Assembly (NCBI GenBank): GCA_020251025.1
Contig: JADCDI010000075.1
Coordinates: forward strand, 1-64,000
From: Rhodobacter sp.
Lineage (GTDB): Bacteria; Pseudomonadota; Alphaproteobacteria; Rhodobacterales; Rhodobacteraceae
Reading direction: 5' to 3'
DNA length: 64,000 nt
Made by a program: the position numbers and the translations under genes. Positions within the stretch are counted from its first letter, which is position 1. Every line of letters starts with the position of its first letter. The notes under the pieces are model-generated. The model was not told the origin of the DNA, searched no databases, and was given only the letters and a program-made list of their open reading frames with translations. Shown one piece after another: positions 13,755 to 22,911 of the stretch.

Positions 13755-14341
13755 GCAGGGCTGCGGCGCGGGGCGCGGGCACTGATATCAGGGGGCACAC
13801 TTCCGCTGCGCGGCGGCTTGCGGACCGGGCCGTTCCCGGACGGGACAGGCCCGCAAGAACGCGCCGCGCCGGGGCCTCCGTCATCCCGGATCGTGGCTGC
13901 CCGGTCTGATGTCCTTGCCGAAGTCCGCCCTTGCGGCGGCCCCCGGACACCCCCCGAAAACACAAAGGCGCATGGGCACAGCCCTGTCCCCCGGCCCCCC
14001 CCCTTTGGCTGCAGGGTCCCTGTCGGTCGGGGCGCAGCCACTGCGCCGCCCCGACCCGGTGCAAGGAAGGGATGATTCGCGGCCTTCGAATCAGCAGTTC
14101 GCGGTGCGCCCCGGGCCTGCGGTTGCCCCCCCCGGCGTGACATGCCCAAGTTGATCGTCCGGGACCCAGGATTGTGTCCCATCCGGCCACTGGTGCAACC
14201 TTGCCACAGCGCCGCGTGTTCCGGAAATTTCGAAAGTATTAACCATGCTTGGTGTTTGAACCGCGTGCAGGGACCGACTAGGCGCGAACGCCAAGGCGGG
14301 GTGGAAACACCCGTACGGTGTCGGCCTGCTGCGGTGAGAAA
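13755..14341. other. Long leader upstream of the DUF11 protein gene
   Basis: 587 bases without a supported gene. Features: an imperfect strong hairpin at 14027-14054 (TCGGGGCGCA / TGCGCCGCCCCGA, 2-base bulge, no T-run), a locally A/T-richer patch at 14221-14260, and a TTAACCAT octamer at 14239-14246. The small plus-strand frame at 14142 has no family resemblance and was not called. Confidence 0.55.
14239..14246 (+). promoter_or_regulatory. Possible CtrA half-site (TTAACCAT)
   Basis: TTAACCAT, the half-site recognised by the cell-cycle/motility regulator CtrA in alphaproteobacteria, 96 bases upstream of the DUF11 gene and within the only A/T-rich patch of its leader. A single octamer is weak evidence; no second half-site at standard spacing was found. 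Confidence 0.3.
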
Positions 14342-17300
14342 ATGCTCCGACGTGCAATTCTTGTTGCCTCCGCGCTTGTCGGGCTGGCAACGCCTGTGCT
14401 GTCACAGGGGCTGCCCGCGCATGACTGGGTGGTCAACGTCGAGAACGAAGGGTCCAACGTCCTGCCTGCGGGCAGTCTGGCGGCGTATGTTGTCACCGTG
14501 GATAACGAGCCGGGCACTTCCGCGCCAGCCACGGTCATCAATATCCCTGTCCCCGCCACAACGACCTTTGCCGGCGCCACCGGCGCGATCACGGGCTGCG
14601 CGGTTTCGGCCGGCGTCGTAAGCTGCACGGTGCCGGCGCTGGCCCCGGCCTCGCGCGCGGGCATGGTGATCCGGTTTGCGACCGTCGAAGAGGGTGTGAT
14701 CGCGGTGACGCCGACCATTCCGGCACCCGACGCCGACCCGGTCAACAACACCGAGACGGTGACGACGACGATCACCAAAGGCGCCGACATCGGGCTGTCC
14801 ATCACCGGCCCGGACACGGCGGCGGCGGGAAGCAGGGTCAGCTATGCGATCACGGTGCAGAATTCTGGTCCCTATGATGCGGACAGCTTCGAGTTTGATT
14901 TCCCGGTTCCGACCGGACTCGGCGCGATTGCCCCGCCGCCGGGATGCACGCTGTCGGGAAGCAGCTATTTCTGCTCCGGGGTGGCGCTGGCCCCGAACCT
15001 GTCGCGCACGTTCGCCTTCAGCGGGACGCTGGGCGTTGAGTCCTTCTCGACCGTCACGCTGTCGGCCAGCCTTACAGACAGTACGCCGCTTGACCCCAAT
15101 TCCGGTAATGACAGTGCGGTCAAGAATACCGCCGTGACGGCGGGCAGCGACGTCAAGGTCACCAAATCCCGCGCCCCGTCCGGAATACTGACCGTGGGGC
15201 AGACCGTGACCTTCACGCTGACCCCAAGCTACAGCGGCGACGTGCCGAACGGCCTGACGATGGAAGACACGCTGCCGGAAAACTACGCGCTGGTCGCAGT
15301 CACACCTGCGCCCGGCAGCGGCTGGACCTGTGAAACAGCCGGGCAGACCGTCACCTGCGACAAGCCGTCGGGGTCGGTGGCGGGGCTGAATGTTCCGCTG
15401 GGGGTCGTGACGCTGGAGGCCAGGGTCGTTGCGCAAGGCACCCCCGTGAACGAGGTGGTGATCGCGTCCGCCCAGCCATTTGATCCGGATCTGACCAACA
15501 ATCGGGCGACCGATGGCGGTGCCACAATCCAGCCGCCGCTGATAGAGTCCATAGACCTTGCCATCCGCAAGACAGGCCCGAACCCGCCGCTGGTCGTCGT
15601 GGGAAACAGCTACAACTTCCAGCTCAGCGCGCAGAATCTGGGAACCGTGGGTTTCTACGGCACGGTCCAGATCGAGGAGTTGATTCCCGATGGCCTGACG
15701 GTCACCGCGATCAGCGGGGGGCCGAGCTGGACCTGCACGCCCCCCGCTGCCCTTCCGCTTGCCGGACCGGCCACAATCCCCTGCCTGCGGGTCTACACGC
15801 AGGCCAATCCGCTGGCACCGAATGCCACGACGCAGCCCGGCATCACCGTGACAGCGACGGTCACGAAAAGTGGCACCATCAACAACGGTGCGCGGGTGAC
15901 CGCCATCGGGGGCAATCTGCCGGACCTTGTTCCGGAGAATGACGAGACCCAGTTCGGTGTCGGTGGCAGCAATCCGGGGGACGCGGCTGATATCACTGTC
16001 CTGAAGACGGCGCGGAATGCGACCGTGAATGCGGGTGAAGAGCAGGTCTATGACCTGCAGATCGTCAACAGCGGCCCAAGCGCCTCTGCCTCGGTGACGT
16101 TGATCGATGATCTGACCAGACTGATCAACACCAATACCTCCGGGCCGAATGCCGGCTATGTCTCAACGGTGGTCACGCCGGGACAGGCCTTGGGGATGAC
16201 CTGTTCCGTCGCTCCGGTCGGGCAGGCGGTGCGGCAAACCTGCAACATCGCCACCCTGCCGGTCTGCACGGTGAACGTCGATTGCCCCACCCTGGCGATC
16301 ACGGTCAGACCGGGGGGCAATGGCGGATCCCGGACGAACACCGCCACCGTGGATTCTTCCGTTACGGCCGACCCCATCCGGACGAACAACTCTGCCACAG
16401 CCAGTTTCACAGTCATCCCGCGCGCGGATGTGACGGTGGAAAAGACCGCCACGCCCTCACCCGTTCGCGCCGGGCAGAACCTGATCTATGTGATCACCGC
16501 CAAGAACAAGGCGAACGGGCTGAGTGCTGCCGGCAATGTCACGATCACGGACATCCTTGCGGACGATCTGACGTTCCTGTCCGCCGTTGCCTCTCAGGGC
16601 GGGCCCTGTACCCGCACGCCGACACCCGGCAGCGTGACCGGTGCGGCCACAAACAACAACCGCATCGAATGCAATCTGGGCAACCTCAACAACGGCACCC
16701 AGCAAACCGTGACCGTCACGCTGCGGCCAAACCAGAGTTTCCGCGGCACCAGCCTGACAAACACGGTTGACGTGACCACCTCGACCACCGAGACGGATAC
16801 GCTGAACAACCGTGCCTCTGTCACGACCCCGGTCATCGACCCGCGCTTTGATCTTCTGGTCGGCAAGACCGACAGTGTGGACCCTGTCACCGTGGGCGAT
16901 GACACCGTCTATACCATTCGGGTCCAGAACCGCGGCCCATCCGCAGCCGAAGGTGTTTCGGTCGTTGATACACTTCCGGCAGCTTTGCTGAGCTTTCAAT
17001 CCCTGACGGAACCGCCCGGAGCGACCTGCGTGGTTGCCGCGACAAGCGGTGAGGTCGGCGGAACGCTGAGCTGTTCCTTTCCCTTTCTTGCGGCGGACGA
17101 GATCCGGGATATCGCGGTGACGATGCGCGGTGTGGCGCGGGGCGTTGCGGTCAACGCTGTCGAGGTTTCTGCCGACGGGTCTGACGAGTTCGACATCCAG
17201 CCGCTCAACAACACGGCCAGTCAGAATACCACCGTCCGCAGCCGCGTGGATGTGGAGGTGACAGGCAAGGTGCCCAGCACGCCCGCCCCGGTGATCGGCG

Positions 17301-19405
17301 AGACCTTTACCTTTACGATCCGCGTGACCAATCTTGCGGGGCCGATGCTGTCCGAGGCGGACAATGTCGTGCTTGGCGATACCTTGCCCGCCGGCATGGT
17401 CATGGCGGGCGTGCCCGGTGCCACGGTGGTGAACGGGACAACCACCGCGCTGGGCTGCGCGGTGACGGGGGCTGACGCCGGTTTCACCTGCAATTTCGGG
17501 ACGATGTCGGCGGGCGGGATCGTGGACGTGGTGGTGCCGGTTCGGGTGCAGGCCGTCACCTCCAGCCCGCAGAGCTTTGTCAACACGGCTGCGGTCACGA
17601 CAACATCGGGTGACCAGAACCTGGCCAACAACAGCGCCTCGGGGACGGTCACCGTAACACAGAACGCCCCCCCGGCGATTGCGCTGGTCAAGACCGTCAG
17701 CACTGCGGGGCTGTCAACGCCCGCGCAGGCGGGCGAGGTGCTGACCTATGCCTTCAGCGTCACCAACACCGGCGGGCTGACGCTGCGCGATGTGACGCTG
17801 GCCGACAGCCTGCCGGGCATGGTGATTTCGGGCGGGCCGATTGCAAGCCTTGCCCCCGGCGCGGTGGATTCCACCACCTTTACCGGGGCCTATGCCCTGA
17901 CCCAGGCCGATCTGGACCTGGGCCGGGTCAGCAATTCGGCCAAGATCACGGGCACCTTTACCACCCCCACCGGCGGGGCGGACACGGTAACGGACACCTC
18001 GGGCACCGCCGTGGACAATGACGACCCGACCGAGGTCGGTCTGCCGTCCGCTGCGGCCATTGCCGTGGTCAAGACGGCGGACATCAGCCAGATGACGACG
18101 CCGACGCAGCCGGGCGACGTCATCATCTACCGCTTTGCCGTGACCAACACCGGCAATGTCACACTGACGGATGTGACGCTGGCCGATCCGCTGCCGGGCC
18201 TGACCCTGACCGGCGGGCCGATCGCGGCCCTGGCCCCCGGCGTCACCGATACCACCACCTTTACCGGCACCTATGCCGTAACCCAGGCCGATATTCAGGC
18301 CGAACAGGTGGTGAACCAGGCTACGGTCACAGGCAACCCGCCGACCGGCCCGCCGGTGACCGGCCTGTCAGGCACCAGCCTGACCAACAACAGCCCGACC
18401 GTGGTGCCGCTGACCTACGCCCCCGACGTGACCGCCACCAAGACCGCCAGCACCGACCGCGTGATCATCGGCGACCGGGTGACCTACACGCTGACCTTTG
18501 CCTCCAACAGCCTCGGCACGCTGCGCAATGTCACGGTGATCGACGTGCTGCCCCCGGGCCTTGTCTATACCCCCGGAACCGCCACGGTGGACGGCCTGGC
18601 GATGGAGCCGCAGGTGACCGGGCGGACCCTGCGCTGGGCCGGCCAGACCATCGGCCCGAAACAGTCGCTGACCGTCAGGCTGGGCGTGCGCGTGACCGGG
18701 GCCGCGCCCTGGGGCAGGCTGGAAAACCGGACCTGGCTGGAAGGCAGCAGCGGCGCGCGGTTTTCCAACACCGCCACCGCAACCATTGTGCGCGAGCCGG
18801 AAGCGGTCTTTGACTGTGCCGATATTATCGGCAAGGTCTTTGACGACCGCAACCGCAACGGCACCCAGGATGCGCCGGACGGATCAGGGGCGACAGAGCC
18901 CGGCCTGCCGGCGGTGCGCGTGGTGACAACGCGCGGTTATGTCATCACCACCGATGAATTCGGACGCTTCCACGTGCCCTGCGCCGAGCTGCCGCGTGAG
19001 ATGGGGTCGAATTTCACCCTCAAGCTGGACACGCGGTCCTTGCCCGCGGGCTACCGGCTGACCACCGAAAACCCGCGCACGGTCCGCGTGACACCGGGCA
19101 AGATGGCCAAGGTGAATTTCGGCGTCAGCCTGTCACGCGTGGTGCGCATCGATCTGTCGGCCCCGGCCTTTACCGCCGAAGGGCAGCCGACGGCGGCGCT
19201 TCAGCAGGGCATCGCGGGCCTGGTCGCACAGCTTCAGGCAGAGCCTTCGGTGCTGCGGCTGAACTACCGACTTTCCGGGGAAAGCGATGCCGTCGCGCTG
19301 AGGCGGCTGGACCGGGTCGAGGCGCTGGTGCGCAGCGCCTGGCAGGATCAGGGCACGCGGCTGCGGGTTGAACGCACATTGCAGCGCAGCGGGGACGCGC
19401 CATGA
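14342..19405 (+). CDS. Giant secreted DUF11-repeat protein with SdrD-B-like and OmpA-like C-terminal parts
   Basis: 1687 residues. A signal peptide (about 1-22, 'RRAILVASALVGLATPVLSQ') is followed by about eleven tandem Ig-like DUF11 repeats of 110 to 150 residues (about 24-1480). Each opens with a 'D[IV].V.KT' strand, then 'G..V.YTI.V.N.G', 'DTLP.G', and closes with 'N..A.V....D....NN.A'. Repeats 9 and 10 are especially alike. Around 1490-1595 lies one SdrD-B/carboxypeptidase-regulatory-like domain ('VFDDRNRNGTQD' ... 'TTDEFGRFHVPC'). The last 90 residues (from 'RVVRIDLSAPAF') look like a small OmpA-like periplasmic domain. Such proteins are usually long surface stalks or adhesins. Start ATG 14342 gives the signal peptide; an upstream start at 14318 would spoil it. 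Translationally coupled to the barrel gene. Confidence 0.8.
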   Translation: MLRRAILVASALVGLATPVLSQGLPAHDWVVNVENEGSNVLPAGSLAAYVVTVDNEPGTSAPATVINIPVPATTTFAGATGAITGCAVSAGVVSCTVPALAPASRAGMVIRFATVEEGVIAVTPTIPAPDADPVNNTETVTTTITKGADIGLSITGPDTAAAGSRVSYAITVQNSGPYDADSFEFDFPVPTGLGAIAPPPGCTLSGSSYFCSGVALAPNLSRTFAFSGTLGVESFSTVTLSASLTDSTPLDPNSGNDSAVKNTAVTAGSDVKVTKSRAPSGILTVGQTVTFTLTPSYSGDVPNGLTMEDTLPENYALVAVTPAPGSGWTCETAGQTVTCDKPSGSVAGLNVPLGVVTLEARVVAQGTPVNEVVIASAQPFDPDLTNNRATDGGATIQPPLIESIDLAIRKTGPNPPLVVVGNSYNFQLSAQNLGTVGFYGTVQIEELIPDGLTVTAISGGPSWTCTPPAALPLAGPATIPCLRVYTQANPLAPNATTQPGITVTATVTKSGTINNGARVTAIGGNLPDLVPENDETQFGVGGSNPGDAADITVLKTARNATVNAGEEQVYDLQIVNSGPSASASVTLIDDLTRLINTNTSGPNAGYVSTVVTPGQALGMTCSVAPVGQAVRQTCNIATLPVCTVNVDCPTLAITVRPGGNGGSRTNTATVDSSVTADPIRTNNSATASFTVIPRADVTVEKTATPSPVRAGQNLIYVITAKNKANGLSAAGNVTITDILADDLTFLSAVASQGGPCTRTPTPGSVTGAATNNNRIECNLGNLNNGTQQTVTVTLRPNQSFRGTSLTNTVDVTTSTTETDTLNNRASVTTPVIDPRFDLLVGKTDSVDPVTVGDDTVYTIRVQNRGPSAAEGVSVVDTLPAALLSFQSLTEPPGATCVVAATSGEVGGTLSCSFPFLAADEIRDIAVTMRGVARGVAVNAVEVSADGSDEFDIQPLNNTASQNTTVRSRVDVEVTGKVPSTPAPVIGETFTFTIRVTNLAGPMLSEADNVVLGDTLPAGMVMAGVPGATVVNGTTTALGCAVTGADAGFTCNFGTMSAGGIVDVVVPVRVQAVTSSPQSFVNTAAVTTTSGDQNLANNSASGTVTVTQNAPPAIALVKTVSTAGLSTPAQAGEVLTYAFSVTNTGGLTLRDVTLADSLPGMVISGGPIASLAPGAVDSTTFTGAYALTQADLDLGRVSNSAKITGTFTTPTGGADTVTDTSGTAVDNDDPTEVGLPSAAAIAVVKTADISQMTTPTQPGDVIIYRFAVTNTGNVTLTDVTLADPLPGLTLTGGPIAALAPGVTDTTTFTGTYAVTQADIQAEQVVNQATVTGNPPTGPPVTGLSGTSLTNNSPTVVPLTYAPDVTATKTASTDRVIIGDRVTYTLTFASNSLGTLRNVTVIDVLPPGLVYTPGTATVDGLAMEPQVTGRTLRWAGQTIGPKQSLTVRLGVRVTGAAPWGRLENRTWLEGSSGARFSNTATATIVREPEAVFDCADIIGKVFDDRNRNGTQDAPDGSGATEPGLPAVRVVTTRGYVITTDEFGRFHVPCAELPREMGSNFTLKLDTRSLPAGYRLTTENPRTVRVTPGKMAKVNFGVSLSRVVRIDLSAPAFTAEGQPTAALQQGIAGLVAQLQAEPSVLRLNYRLSGESDAVALRRLDRVEALVRSAWQDQGTRLRVERTLQRSGDAP

Positions 19406-22400
19406 CGCGCCGCCCATCCCCCGCAGGCGGGGCGGCCCGCCTTGCCGCGCTGGCCTGTTCGGCGCTGGCGCTGGCCGCAGGGCAATCCGCCGCGCAGGAC
19501 TGTGTGGCGATGTCCAACTGCGTGCTGACGGTGGATGCCGGGGCGAATAGCGAAGGCATCACCAGCCTTCCGCCCGATCCCATGGGTGGCCCCGGCTTTT
19601 CGATCAGCATCGAAGGTGAGCCGCTGCAGGGCGCACCCGGCTTTGCCGACCGGCAGCGGCAGGCAGACATCGCCCTGGGCGAGGACGATGTTGACCTGCG
19701 CTTTGACGGGCTGGGCATCAGGCCCCGTCTGGATGTGCAGACGCTGGGCGAGGGGCCCTTTGCCCCCGGCCAGAGGGTGACCTTCCGCAGCCGGATGAAT
19801 TACCCCGCCTTTGTGACCGGGGGCGAGCTGCGCATCCTGGACCTGGACGCGCCGGGCGGGGCCAGAACGCTGTCCGTGCTGCCGCTTGCCCCGAATGCCG
19901 AGGTGACGGCGACCCTGCCGCAGGGGCGCACGCTGGCCTATGTTTACCGTGTCATGGACCGGAACCGGCGCTTTGATGAAACGCGCCCCGTGCTGCTGGG
20001 CACCTCGCAGGACCGGGGACTGACCGATCTGGCCAGCGAAGAACAGGGCACGGACGCGGCCGCGATCCGGCGTATCCCGGTGCGGGGCGGGGCGGTCACG
20101 GTCTTTGTGCAGAACCTGGCACCGGGAAGCAGGGTAGAGACGCTGGGCACCGTGGTAACGGCAGATCCGTCCGGCAAGGCCGTGATCCAGCGCGTTCTGC
20201 CGCCCGGCGCGCGCGGGATCGACGTGCGCGTGGTGCGTCCAGACGGGTCGGGGCAGACCATCCGCCGCGCCGTGACCATTCCCGCATCCGAATGGTTCTA
20301 TGTCGGTGTGGCCGACCTGGCCTTTGGGCGCAAGACCAATGGCGGGGACAACGGCGGGGGCGACAGCTATGGCACCGGGCGGCTGTCGGGCTATGCCAAG
20401 GGCACGACCGCATCCGGGGCGACGGTCACGCTGCAGGCCGACAGCGGCGAAGACGATCTTGATGATCTTTTCAGCAACATCCTGAACAAGGACCCGGATT
20501 CGATCCTGGACCGGCTGGACCCCGATCTGTCCTATCCGACCTATGGCGACGATTCCACGCTGGTCATCGACGCCCCGACTTCGGGCGGGTTCTATCTGAA
20601 GGTGGAAAAGGACGGCAATTTCGGCCTGTGGGGCGATTTCAAGTCGGTCACGCCGGGCACGGACCTTCTGCGCAACGAACGCACGCTGTACGGGGCGCAG
20701 ACCGTGCTGCAGACCGCAGGCGTGAACGGCGATGGCGCGCCGCGCCTGCGTTTCGAAGGCTATGCGGCCCAGCCCGACCAGCTTCCCCAGCGCGACGTGC
20801 TGCGCGGCACCGGCGGGTCTGTCTATTTCCTGTCGCGCCAGGACATCCTGCCGGGGTCGGAAACGCTGGCGGTTGAATTGCGCGATGCCGATACCCGGCG
20901 GGTGATTTCGCGCACCACCCTGGTTCAGGGCAAGGATTACGACATCAACTACACGCAAGGTGTCGTCACCCTTTACAGCCCGCTGTCGGGCTATGGCACC
21001 GGGGGGGGGCTGTTGTCGTCCAACCCCAACGGCGACGAGACGCTGAGCCTGGTCGCGCAGTATGAATGGCGCCCCGTTCTGGGCGATATCGAGGGCTATG
21101 CCTATGGCGCGCGGCTGACCTCGGGGATTGCCGACAACCTGCAGATCGGCGCAACCGCACAAAGCGACGATTCCGGCACCGCAGATCAGACGGCCTATGG
21201 GGTGGATCTGGCCTGGACGAAAAGCGACCGCACCTTTCTGAAGGCCGAGGTCGCGCGCACGGACGGACCGGGCTTTGGCTATGTCACCTCTTTGAACGGC
21301 GGCCTGACCGGCAATGAAACCGCCCCGCCGGATGGCAGCGGCACGGCCTATTCGCTGACCGCACAGGCCGCGCTGGACGAACTCTGGGCCGGGGGCGCCG
21401 GGACGGTCGGGGTCTATGTGCAAAGATTTGGGGCGGGGTTCTCCTCGCTTGACCGGCAGGTGACGGAACCGCAAACCCTGTGGGGCCTCAGCGCGGAGGT
21501 GCCCCTGTCGGCGGCCACCGGCCTGACGCTGAGCTATGACCATTCCGATCAGGACCCGGATGCGGCGCAGGACCGGGCGCAGATTCTGCTCGACCACCGG
21601 ATCAATGACCGGGTGGCGGTTGAGCTGGGCTACGGCCGTATCGACAGCACCGACCCCGGCGATACGGACGGCACCGGCACGCGGGACGATCTGGCGGCAC
21701 GGCTGATCCTGACCCCTTCGGAGATGTCCGAATGGTACGTCTTCGGCCAGGGGTCGCTGAACGTGACCGGCGATCTGGAAAGGGCCGACCGCGCCGGGAT
21801 CGGGGGCGAGGTCCTGCTTGACGGGTCGTGGTCGATCCGGGGCGAAGTGTCGGACGGGGCCACCGGCCCCGGCGGGCGCCTGCTGCTGGGACAGGACAGG
21901 GACGAGCAATCCAATGTCTATTTCGGCTATACGCTGGACCCCGACCGCACCGTTGACGACGTGGTGCTGACGGGGCGCGACCGTGGGCAGTTCGTGGCGG
22001 GCGGGCGGCGGCGCTACAGCGACAAGGTCACGGCCTTTGCCGAGAATACCTATGATCTGTTCGGGCAACAGCGGTCGCTGACATCGGCCTATGGCATCGA
22101 ATATGCCCGGTCACAGCGCATGGTCTACAGCGGGGCCATCGAATCCGGCGTCGTCAGCGGTGCGCCGGACGGGGATGTGGAACGCACCGCCCTGTCGCTG
22201 GGCCTGCGCTATGACGACGGGGAAGCGGTGAACACCCGGGCGCGCATCGAAGTCATCAATGACGACGGCCCCGACGGCAGGGTCAACACACTGCTGTTGT
22301 CGGGTCTTCTGCGCTATGAATTCAGCGATCAGTCCCGGATCGTGGCCGATCTGGACGCGATGTTCAACGATGCCGGGTCCGAGGCGCTGCCAAAAGGCGA

Positions 22401-22911
22401 CTACAGCGATCTTGTCATCGGCTATGCGTTCCGGCCCATCCTGGATGATCAGGTGAACCTTCTGGTGCGGTATCAGTATCTGGATGACATGTTCGGCCAG
22501 GCGGTGGATGGCGACCTTGGCGCAGGTCCGCTTCAGCGCAGCCACGTCTTCAGCCTTGATGCCGAATTCGATGTCTCGCCGCGCTGGACGCTGGGGGCAA
22601 AGCTGGGGGGACGGCTGACGCAAAGCGCTGTGGATGCGGACAACCCCTTCGCGTCGAATGATGCCTGGCTGGCGGTTGCCACGGCGCGCTATCACATCGT
22701 CAATGAATGGGACATGCTGCTGGAAGCCCGGAATCTGACGGCAATTCAGGCCGATACCGCAAACTTCGGGGCTTTGGTCGGCGTCTACAGGCAGGTGGGA
22801 CAAGCGGTGATGATTGGCGGGTCCTATAACTTCGGCAGTTTCTCGGATGATCTGACGGATCTTGTCGCCGATGATCGGGGGGCCGAGATCAACCTGATCG
22901 CAAGGTTCTGA
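19402..22911 (+). CDS. Outer-membrane beta-barrel protein partnered with the DUF11 protein
   Basis: 1169 residues with signal peptide 1-31 (cut likely after 'SAAQ'). An N-terminal beta-rich region (about 50-330) is followed by a plug-like stretch with 'VEKDGNFGLWGDF' and 'GKDYDINYTQGVVTL', a motif seen in proteins that accompany DUF11 adhesins. From about 530 to the end, alternating hydrophobic strands with short turns form a predicted large barrel, ending 'INLIARF'; the terminal Phe is the usual Bam recognition signal. An Asp/Asn-rich loop (about 310-318, 'NGGDNGGGD') may bind calcium. ATG overlaps the preceding stop (ATGA). Likely role: anchor or export pore for the DUF11 protein, by inference only; it does not look like a classical TonB receptor because I see no TonB box. 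Confidence 0.7.
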   Translation: MTRRPSPAGGAARLAALACSALALAAGQSAAQDCVAMSNCVLTVDAGANSEGITSLPPDPMGGPGFSISIEGEPLQGAPGFADRQRQADIALGEDDVDLRFDGLGIRPRLDVQTLGEGPFAPGQRVTFRSRMNYPAFVTGGELRILDLDAPGGARTLSVLPLAPNAEVTATLPQGRTLAYVYRVMDRNRRFDETRPVLLGTSQDRGLTDLASEEQGTDAAAIRRIPVRGGAVTVFVQNLAPGSRVETLGTVVTADPSGKAVIQRVLPPGARGIDVRVVRPDGSGQTIRRAVTIPASEWFYVGVADLAFGRKTNGGDNGGGDSYGTGRLSGYAKGTTASGATVTLQADSGEDDLDDLFSNILNKDPDSILDRLDPDLSYPTYGDDSTLVIDAPTSGGFYLKVEKDGNFGLWGDFKSVTPGTDLLRNERTLYGAQTVLQTAGVNGDGAPRLRFEGYAAQPDQLPQRDVLRGTGGSVYFLSRQDILPGSETLAVELRDADTRRVISRTTLVQGKDYDINYTQGVVTLYSPLSGYGTGGGLLSSNPNGDETLSLVAQYEWRPVLGDIEGYAYGARLTSGIADNLQIGATAQSDDSGTADQTAYGVDLAWTKSDRTFLKAEVARTDGPGFGYVTSLNGGLTGNETAPPDGSGTAYSLTAQAALDELWAGGAGTVGVYVQRFGAGFSSLDRQVTEPQTLWGLSAEVPLSAATGLTLSYDHSDQDPDAAQDRAQILLDHRINDRVAVELGYGRIDSTDPGDTDGTGTRDDLAARLILTPSEMSEWYVFGQGSLNVTGDLERADRAGIGGEVLLDGSWSIRGEVSDGATGPGGRLLLGQDRDEQSNVYFGYTLDPDRTVDDVVLTGRDRGQFVAGGRRRYSDKVTAFAENTYDLFGQQRSLTSAYGIEYARSQRMVYSGAIESGVVSGAPDGDVERTALSLGLRYDDGEAVNTRARIEVINDDGPDGRVNTLLLSGLLRYEFSDQSRIVADLDAMFNDAGSEALPKGDYSDLVIGYAFRPILDDQVNLLVRYQYLDDMFGQAVDGDLGAGPLQRSHVFSLDAEFDVSPRWTLGAKLGGRLTQSAVDADNPFASNDAWLAVATARYHIVNEWDMLLEARNLTAIQADTANFGALVGVYRQVGQAVMIGGSYNFGSFSDDLTDLVADDRGAEINLIARF

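Follow-up and report, generated by a model that had tools for sequence, protein, structure and literature searches.

A giant DUF11/CLIPPER stalk and a co-inherited outer-membrane barrel as a probable surface-display pair of Pseudomonadota

In a 64,000-nucleotide stretch of a Rhodobacter sp. genome (GenBank assembly GCA_020251025.1, contig JADCDI010000075.1, positions 1 to 64,000; hereafter the window), two overlapping genes encode a giant protein of tandem DUF11 repeats, here called the stalk, and a predicted outer-membrane β-barrel. The genes are co-inherited in many Pseudomonadota, in some cases as a fusion, and therefore probably constitute a single machine by which the stalk is mounted on the cell surface. 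Giant surface proteins of the DUF11/CLIPPER stalk type are widespread, and the co-inherited barrel is a concrete candidate for their exporter across the Gram-negative outer membrane, or for their anchor. The barrel family has no Pfam or NCBIfam model and is often annotated as “TonB-dependent receptor” or “hypothetical”; a barrel of about 30–40 strands, if this estimate is true, would rank among the largest known. No description of the barrel family or of the stalk/barrel pair was found in the open-licence literature searched.

The two genes and their products

Reading-frame calls placed both genes, with their 4-nt overlap, exactly where the original prediction had them (Table 1). An alternative GTG start at position 14318, upstream of the stalk ATG, would give a stalk of 1695 residues. 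The flanking genes are ordinary, and the pair stands alone: an ABC-F-like ATPase, a cysteinyl-tRNA synthetase, a LeuA/CimA-type enzyme and a squalene/phytoene synthase are encoded upstream, and a formate/nitrite transporter and corrin methylases downstream. A 906-residue frame antisense to the barrel gene (window 19348–22068, minus strand) is probably a by-product of the high G+C content.

Table 1. Features of the stalk and barrel genes in the window.
Feature	Position	Strand	Basis
Stalk gene	14342–19405	+	Reading frame of 1687 residues from ATG; Pfam DUF11 ×11, DUF7507 ×4
Stalk signal peptide, Sec-type	14342–14407	+	Residues 1–22, judged by eye from the sequence
Eleven tandem DUF11/DUF7507 (CLIPPER) Ig-like repeats	14459–18745	+	Pfam; one domain fits 9ifr
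SdrD-B-like domain	18812–19123	+	Alignment A4; PF17210 match in fused relative L119
Stalk tail, predicted β-α-β-α-β, weakly OmpA-like	19124–19402	+	Alignment, prediction, profile comparison
ATGA, barrel start within stalk stop, 4-nt overlap	19402–19405	+	Reading-frame coordinates
Barrel gene	19402–22911	+	Reading frame of 1169 residues ending in LIARF; 30-member family A5
Barrel protein signal peptide	19402–19497	+	Residues ~1–32, by eye from the sequence
Pre-barrel β-sandwich (Ig-like) region, presumably periplasmic	19699–20280	+	Model strands; Glucodextran_B in 5 of 30 relatives
Probable first barrel strands, about six	20374–20772	+	Suggested by hydrophobic alternation
Inserted β domain (GTGGSVYFL...GSE..VELRD...GKDYDINYTQGVVTL)	20779–20991	+	High conservation; plug-like by position alone
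Main barrel, about 33 predicted strands, terminal Phe	21043–22908	+	Model, OMP_b-brl in relatives, alternation

The stalk was assigned using Pfam, which detected 11 DUF11 stretches (E = 7.5e-112; 368 bits, the cut-off being 24.6), as many as had been proposed from the sequence, together with 4 DUF7507 stretches (161 bits, cut-off 27). Its tandem PF01345/PF24346 domains, all above the curated cut-off, make it a DUF11/CLIPPER stalk protein, and all DUF11 matches of the source genome are located in this one gene. DUF11 and DUF7507 have been renamed CLIPPER and CLIPPER_2, and they build the isopeptide-bonded stalks of fibrillar adhesins (PMC12617251). A Lys...Asp/Glu...Asn isopeptide pattern can be read from the alignment alone in repeats 3–11, and Cys pairs are present in repeats 1–8. 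One Ig domain in a model of the stalk C-terminal part fits the CLIPPER structure 9ifr (Z 13.1, rmsd 2.6, 117 residues); for the stalk tail, the VIA comparison effectively covered only residues 1–357 of the model. A phmmer search of the PDB with a single DUF11 repeat gave no match.

The best-conserved portion of the stalk in alignment A4 is the SdrD-B-like domain. Pfam does not call SdrD_B on the window protein; the label nevertheless proved right by homology, as the same segment is called SdrD_B in the fused relative L119 (PF17210, 4.7e-8). The OmpA-like character of the tail is weak. It shows no PF00691 match in Pfam and no GHTD motif in the alignment, and hhalign gave a probability of 27.6% over 34 columns against the OmpA profile, while a β-α-β-α-β pattern was predicted with moderate confidence; any OmpA-like fold in the tail would be a degenerate one. 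No adhesive tip was recognisable by Pfam on the window stalk.

The window barrel protein by itself gave no significant match in Pfam, including OMP_b-brl, in NCBIfam or in the PDB. OMP_b-brl was matched by 13 of its 30 relatives (alignment A5, best 1.7e-9), and most full-length relatives end in an aromatic residue, as the window protein does in Phe. Judged by these two features, a barrel-domain match in relatives and a C-terminal aromatic, the product is an outer-membrane barrel. Hydrophobic alternation agrees with this, being 1.02 in predicted strands versus 0.64 between them. The structure prediction of the barrel proposed as a check was run on the full protein with AF2 (9 sequences); strands were drawn, but the model is poor (pLDDT 47). 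It contains 33 strands of at least 8 residues plus one short strand between residues 548 and 1167. Foldseek and VIA matched this model to the barrels MtrB, LptD, BtuB and FhuA in the PDB, which, because of the low pLDDT, would mean “β-barrel-like” and nothing more specific. The C-terminal barrel of the original prediction is supported by the domain matches, the alternation, the terminal aromatics and these PDB barrels taken together.

Strands were also counted from hydrophobic alternation, using FhuA, BtuB, LptD and FimD for calibration. This gave about 30–32 strands for residues 546–1169 and 39–41 for residues 325–1169, a rough and mainly length-driven count, as shuffled sequences yield about 70–80% of the raw number. 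Alternation also suggests about six further strands at residues 325–457, ahead of the conserved insert. The barrel is therefore large, with perhaps 30–40 strands and possibly in the size class of SprA. The insert itself (residues ~460–530) ranks among the best-conserved stretches of the protein and recurs in a more distant family, A6. It is plug-like in position only, and the plug-like region of the original prediction is not a TonB plug, since none of the 30 members matches Plug or TonB_dep_Rec.

Co-inheritance, fusion and absence of the pair

Among close relatives, a stalk end was found immediately upstream of every barrel examined. The survey was extended over the phylum by searching 398 evenly sampled Pseudomonadota genomes with profiles of the barrel and of the stalk end. 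Of these genomes, 58 matched the barrel, 55 the stalk end and 53 both (Fisher 1.7e-57, kinship not being corrected for). Among the barrels without a stalk match, those of G564, G593 and G654 belong to fused-type proteins whose open frames are short, that of G609 is a short interrupted fragment and that of G580 a marginal match. When only strong barrels were considered (E < 1e-100), the stalk C-terminal module was present in all 22 genomes carrying one, and of their 23 loci, 21 have the stalk end directly upstream, one (G567) has it directly downstream, and one (L119, in G627) is a fusion. Such pairing was also observed on plasmids. Of 72,556 plasmid records, 23 contained the barrel, 23 the stalk end and 22 both, and in each of these 22 the two genes are neighbours on the same strand, the stalk gene coming first. 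Among the carriers are Roseovarius, Roseivivax, Sulfitobacter, Loktanella, Sinorhizobium meliloti, Phyllobacterium, Devosia and Eleftheria terrae. Homologues routinely occurring apart, for which both genomes and plasmids were examined, were not the pattern, and the pairing stood.

Weak stalk-end and barrel matches lie side by side on two cyanobacterial plasmids (NZ_CP083583.1 and AP017960.1), so that the family may extend past Pseudomonadota. On plasmid p4 of Acinetobacter haemolyticus, DUF11 genes stand in a row, two of them separated by an OmpA-family gene, and no barrel match was found there (L182:4455-16820).

For 17 of 17 linked pairs, the start codon of the barrel gene was located between −31 and +32 nt of the stalk stop, and the N-termini are signal-like. 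The stalk frames range from about 740 to 4360 residues, and the barrel region is near-constant. Stalks have up to 35 Ig domains. Fusion occurs at two levels. One full-length case was found within the close family, namely L119, in which a short linker joins the stalk tail to the pre-barrel region in a single frame. The distant family A6 (18 members), whose profile matches that of A5 over 801 columns (E = 4e-93), has a stalk-like part and a barrel in one reading frame in most members. Proteins of related layout include a 4548-residue frame with an SdrD-B-like part and a barrel, lacking a Pfam match over most of its length (L054:10-13653), and one-frame proteins of about 1900 residues with a stalk-like part and a barrel (L097:6745-12384 and similar), which are very common in one group of small draft genomes, family f188. 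Three genomes (G141, G246 and G334) have an unlinked barrel; in each of them two stalks, a long one and a short one, are encoded at other places. This indicates that adjacency is not required and that co-presence is kept, and since the two stalks lie apart from the barrel, stalk and barrel may act in trans. A dedicated pair, as originally proposed, is strongly supported by this co-occurrence and synteny, by the stop/start coupling, by the fusion and by the single barrels with two unlinked stalks.

The pair is dispensable and probably niche-related, because three of six same-genus relatives lack a barrel match (among them a genome of just 83% completeness) and the barrel gene of G001 is interrupted. 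A same-genus relative has the barrel gene in three frames beside an intact stalk end (L011:1667-5172), and a Lake Pavin metagenome-assembled genome has the stalk gene in two overlapping frames, perhaps by frameshift or assembly error (L012:2-3282).

A proposed display unit and its alternatives

We consider it somewhat probable that the pair is one outer-membrane surface-display unit, working in the manner of two-partner secretion or of a split autotransporter. This reading is supported by the co-occurrence, the stop/start coupling, the L119 fusion, the one-frame A6 proteins, the single barrels with two stalks, and stalks that vary in length beside a near-constant barrel. The barrel would export or anchor the stalk. 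In the proposed sequence of events, Sec would carry both proteins into the periplasm, and the C-terminal aromatic signature would direct the barrel protein into the outer membrane. The SdrD-B domain and tail of the stalk would dock on the periplasmic pre-barrel domains and remain there, and the Ig chain, presumably stabilised by isopeptide bonds and disulfides, would thread outward through the wide barrel, finally projecting as a possibly adhesive fibre of tens of nanometres. The pore size is uncertain, as the barrel model is poor.

The orientation is suggested by the relatives. Some beta- and gammaproteobacterial barrel proteins bear OmpA peptidoglycan-binding domains at the N-terminus, ahead of the barrel, which places this end in the periplasm; in fused forms the stalk end likewise precedes the barrel, so that the stalk C-terminus is most likely at the periplasmic side. 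The same OmpA domains, and the stalk end adjoining the pre-barrel region in the fused form, would suit a periplasmic scaffold, in which the DUF11 chain, barrel and OmpA-type domains tie the outer membrane to peptidoglycan without export. We regard this as rather improbable: stalks of up to 35 Ig domains far exceed the periplasm width and are too long to stand upright there, for which outward passage of the repeats is the simplest account, and CLIPPER repeats typically build surface fibres (PMC12617251). The barrel could instead only keep the stalk in the outer membrane, with export by another route. Co-inheritance by itself would fit such anchoring no less than export, and CdrA is held by its C-terminus, which is retained in the CdrB pore (PMC7616799). 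No other dedicated exporter is encoded next to the pair, however, and the sole secretin found in the source genome (L181:41-2028), lipoprotein-like and PilN-type beside a small secreted gene, looks by eye like the type IVb pilus kind and not the GspD kind, which makes passage through the barrel the simplest route; anchoring alone is accordingly a minor possibility.

A barrel acting as a TonB-dependent nutrient receptor with the stalk as its capture arm would agree with several plasmid annotations, and fragments of the model align to TonB receptors, as they do to other barrels. Neither the barrel protein of the window nor any of the 30 relatives matches Plug or TonB_dep_Rec, and this reading is very unlikely. 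Two unrelated envelope genes that merely share an operon is the least credible account: the pairing is known from sequence, yet the L119 fusion, the swapped gene order in G567, the co-presence without linkage and the near-perfect co-occurrence all speak against it.

Returning to the display unit, an unnamed secretion/display system of Pseudomonadota can be sketched more boldly, in which Ig stalks locked by isopeptide bonds and reaching several thousand residues would be exported, and then held, by a giant barrel of about 30–40 strands, one barrel being able to serve several stalks. This wider proposal is tentative and, on balance, doubtful.

Comparison with known systems

Membership in the TonB receptor, Omp85/TPS, autotransporter, T11SS or SprA families was unsupported in searches of Pfam, NCBIfam and the PDB, and so was the annotation of the barrel as “TonB-dependent receptor”. 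The original statement that the pair stands outside the classical type V and TonB systems is supported by the absence of their defining domains. Among the 48 members of the two families, no autotransporter model was matched, and YadA_anchor was matched weakly in 4 (best 6.6e-4). The fused relatives resemble type Va autotransporters in having signal, passenger and C-terminal barrel in one chain, whereas their barrel region of 600–850 residues is far above the 12-strand autotransporter unit. The Acinetobacter fibrillar adhesin B9T28_05395 similarly has a DUF11/CLIPPER stalk followed by a C-terminal region, which there is an OmpA-like anchor; a partner barrel is not described for it (PMC12617251), and the window stalk tail is at best weakly OmpA-like. 

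T11SS (Slam, DUF560) shares two components and genomic co-occurrence with its cargo, but its outer-membrane proteins have about 480 residues (PMC12282271), and no Slam/DUF560 Pfam match occurred in the window protein or the 30 members. SprA, the T9SS translocon of 36 strands (PMC7463736), is possibly of similar giant size, the present barrel being placed at about 30–41 strands by rough estimates and a poor model. No sequence match to solved structures in the PDB was obtained, the NCBIfam SprA model TIGR04189 gave nothing above noise (a single match, E = 0.078, in family A6), and the present pair, unlike SprA, belongs to Pseudomonadota. In the type Vb system CdrA/CdrB, the barrel is accompanied by features missed here: the 30 barrel members gave no significant Omp85 or POTRA match (one Omp85 match at E = 0.089), and the N-terminal TPS domain was absent from the Pfam matches of the window stalk and the other stalks scanned. 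The likeness lies in the layout, in which one operon encodes both a long fibre exported by Sec and an outer-membrane barrel dedicated to it; by this analogy, the pair would work like a two-partner system.
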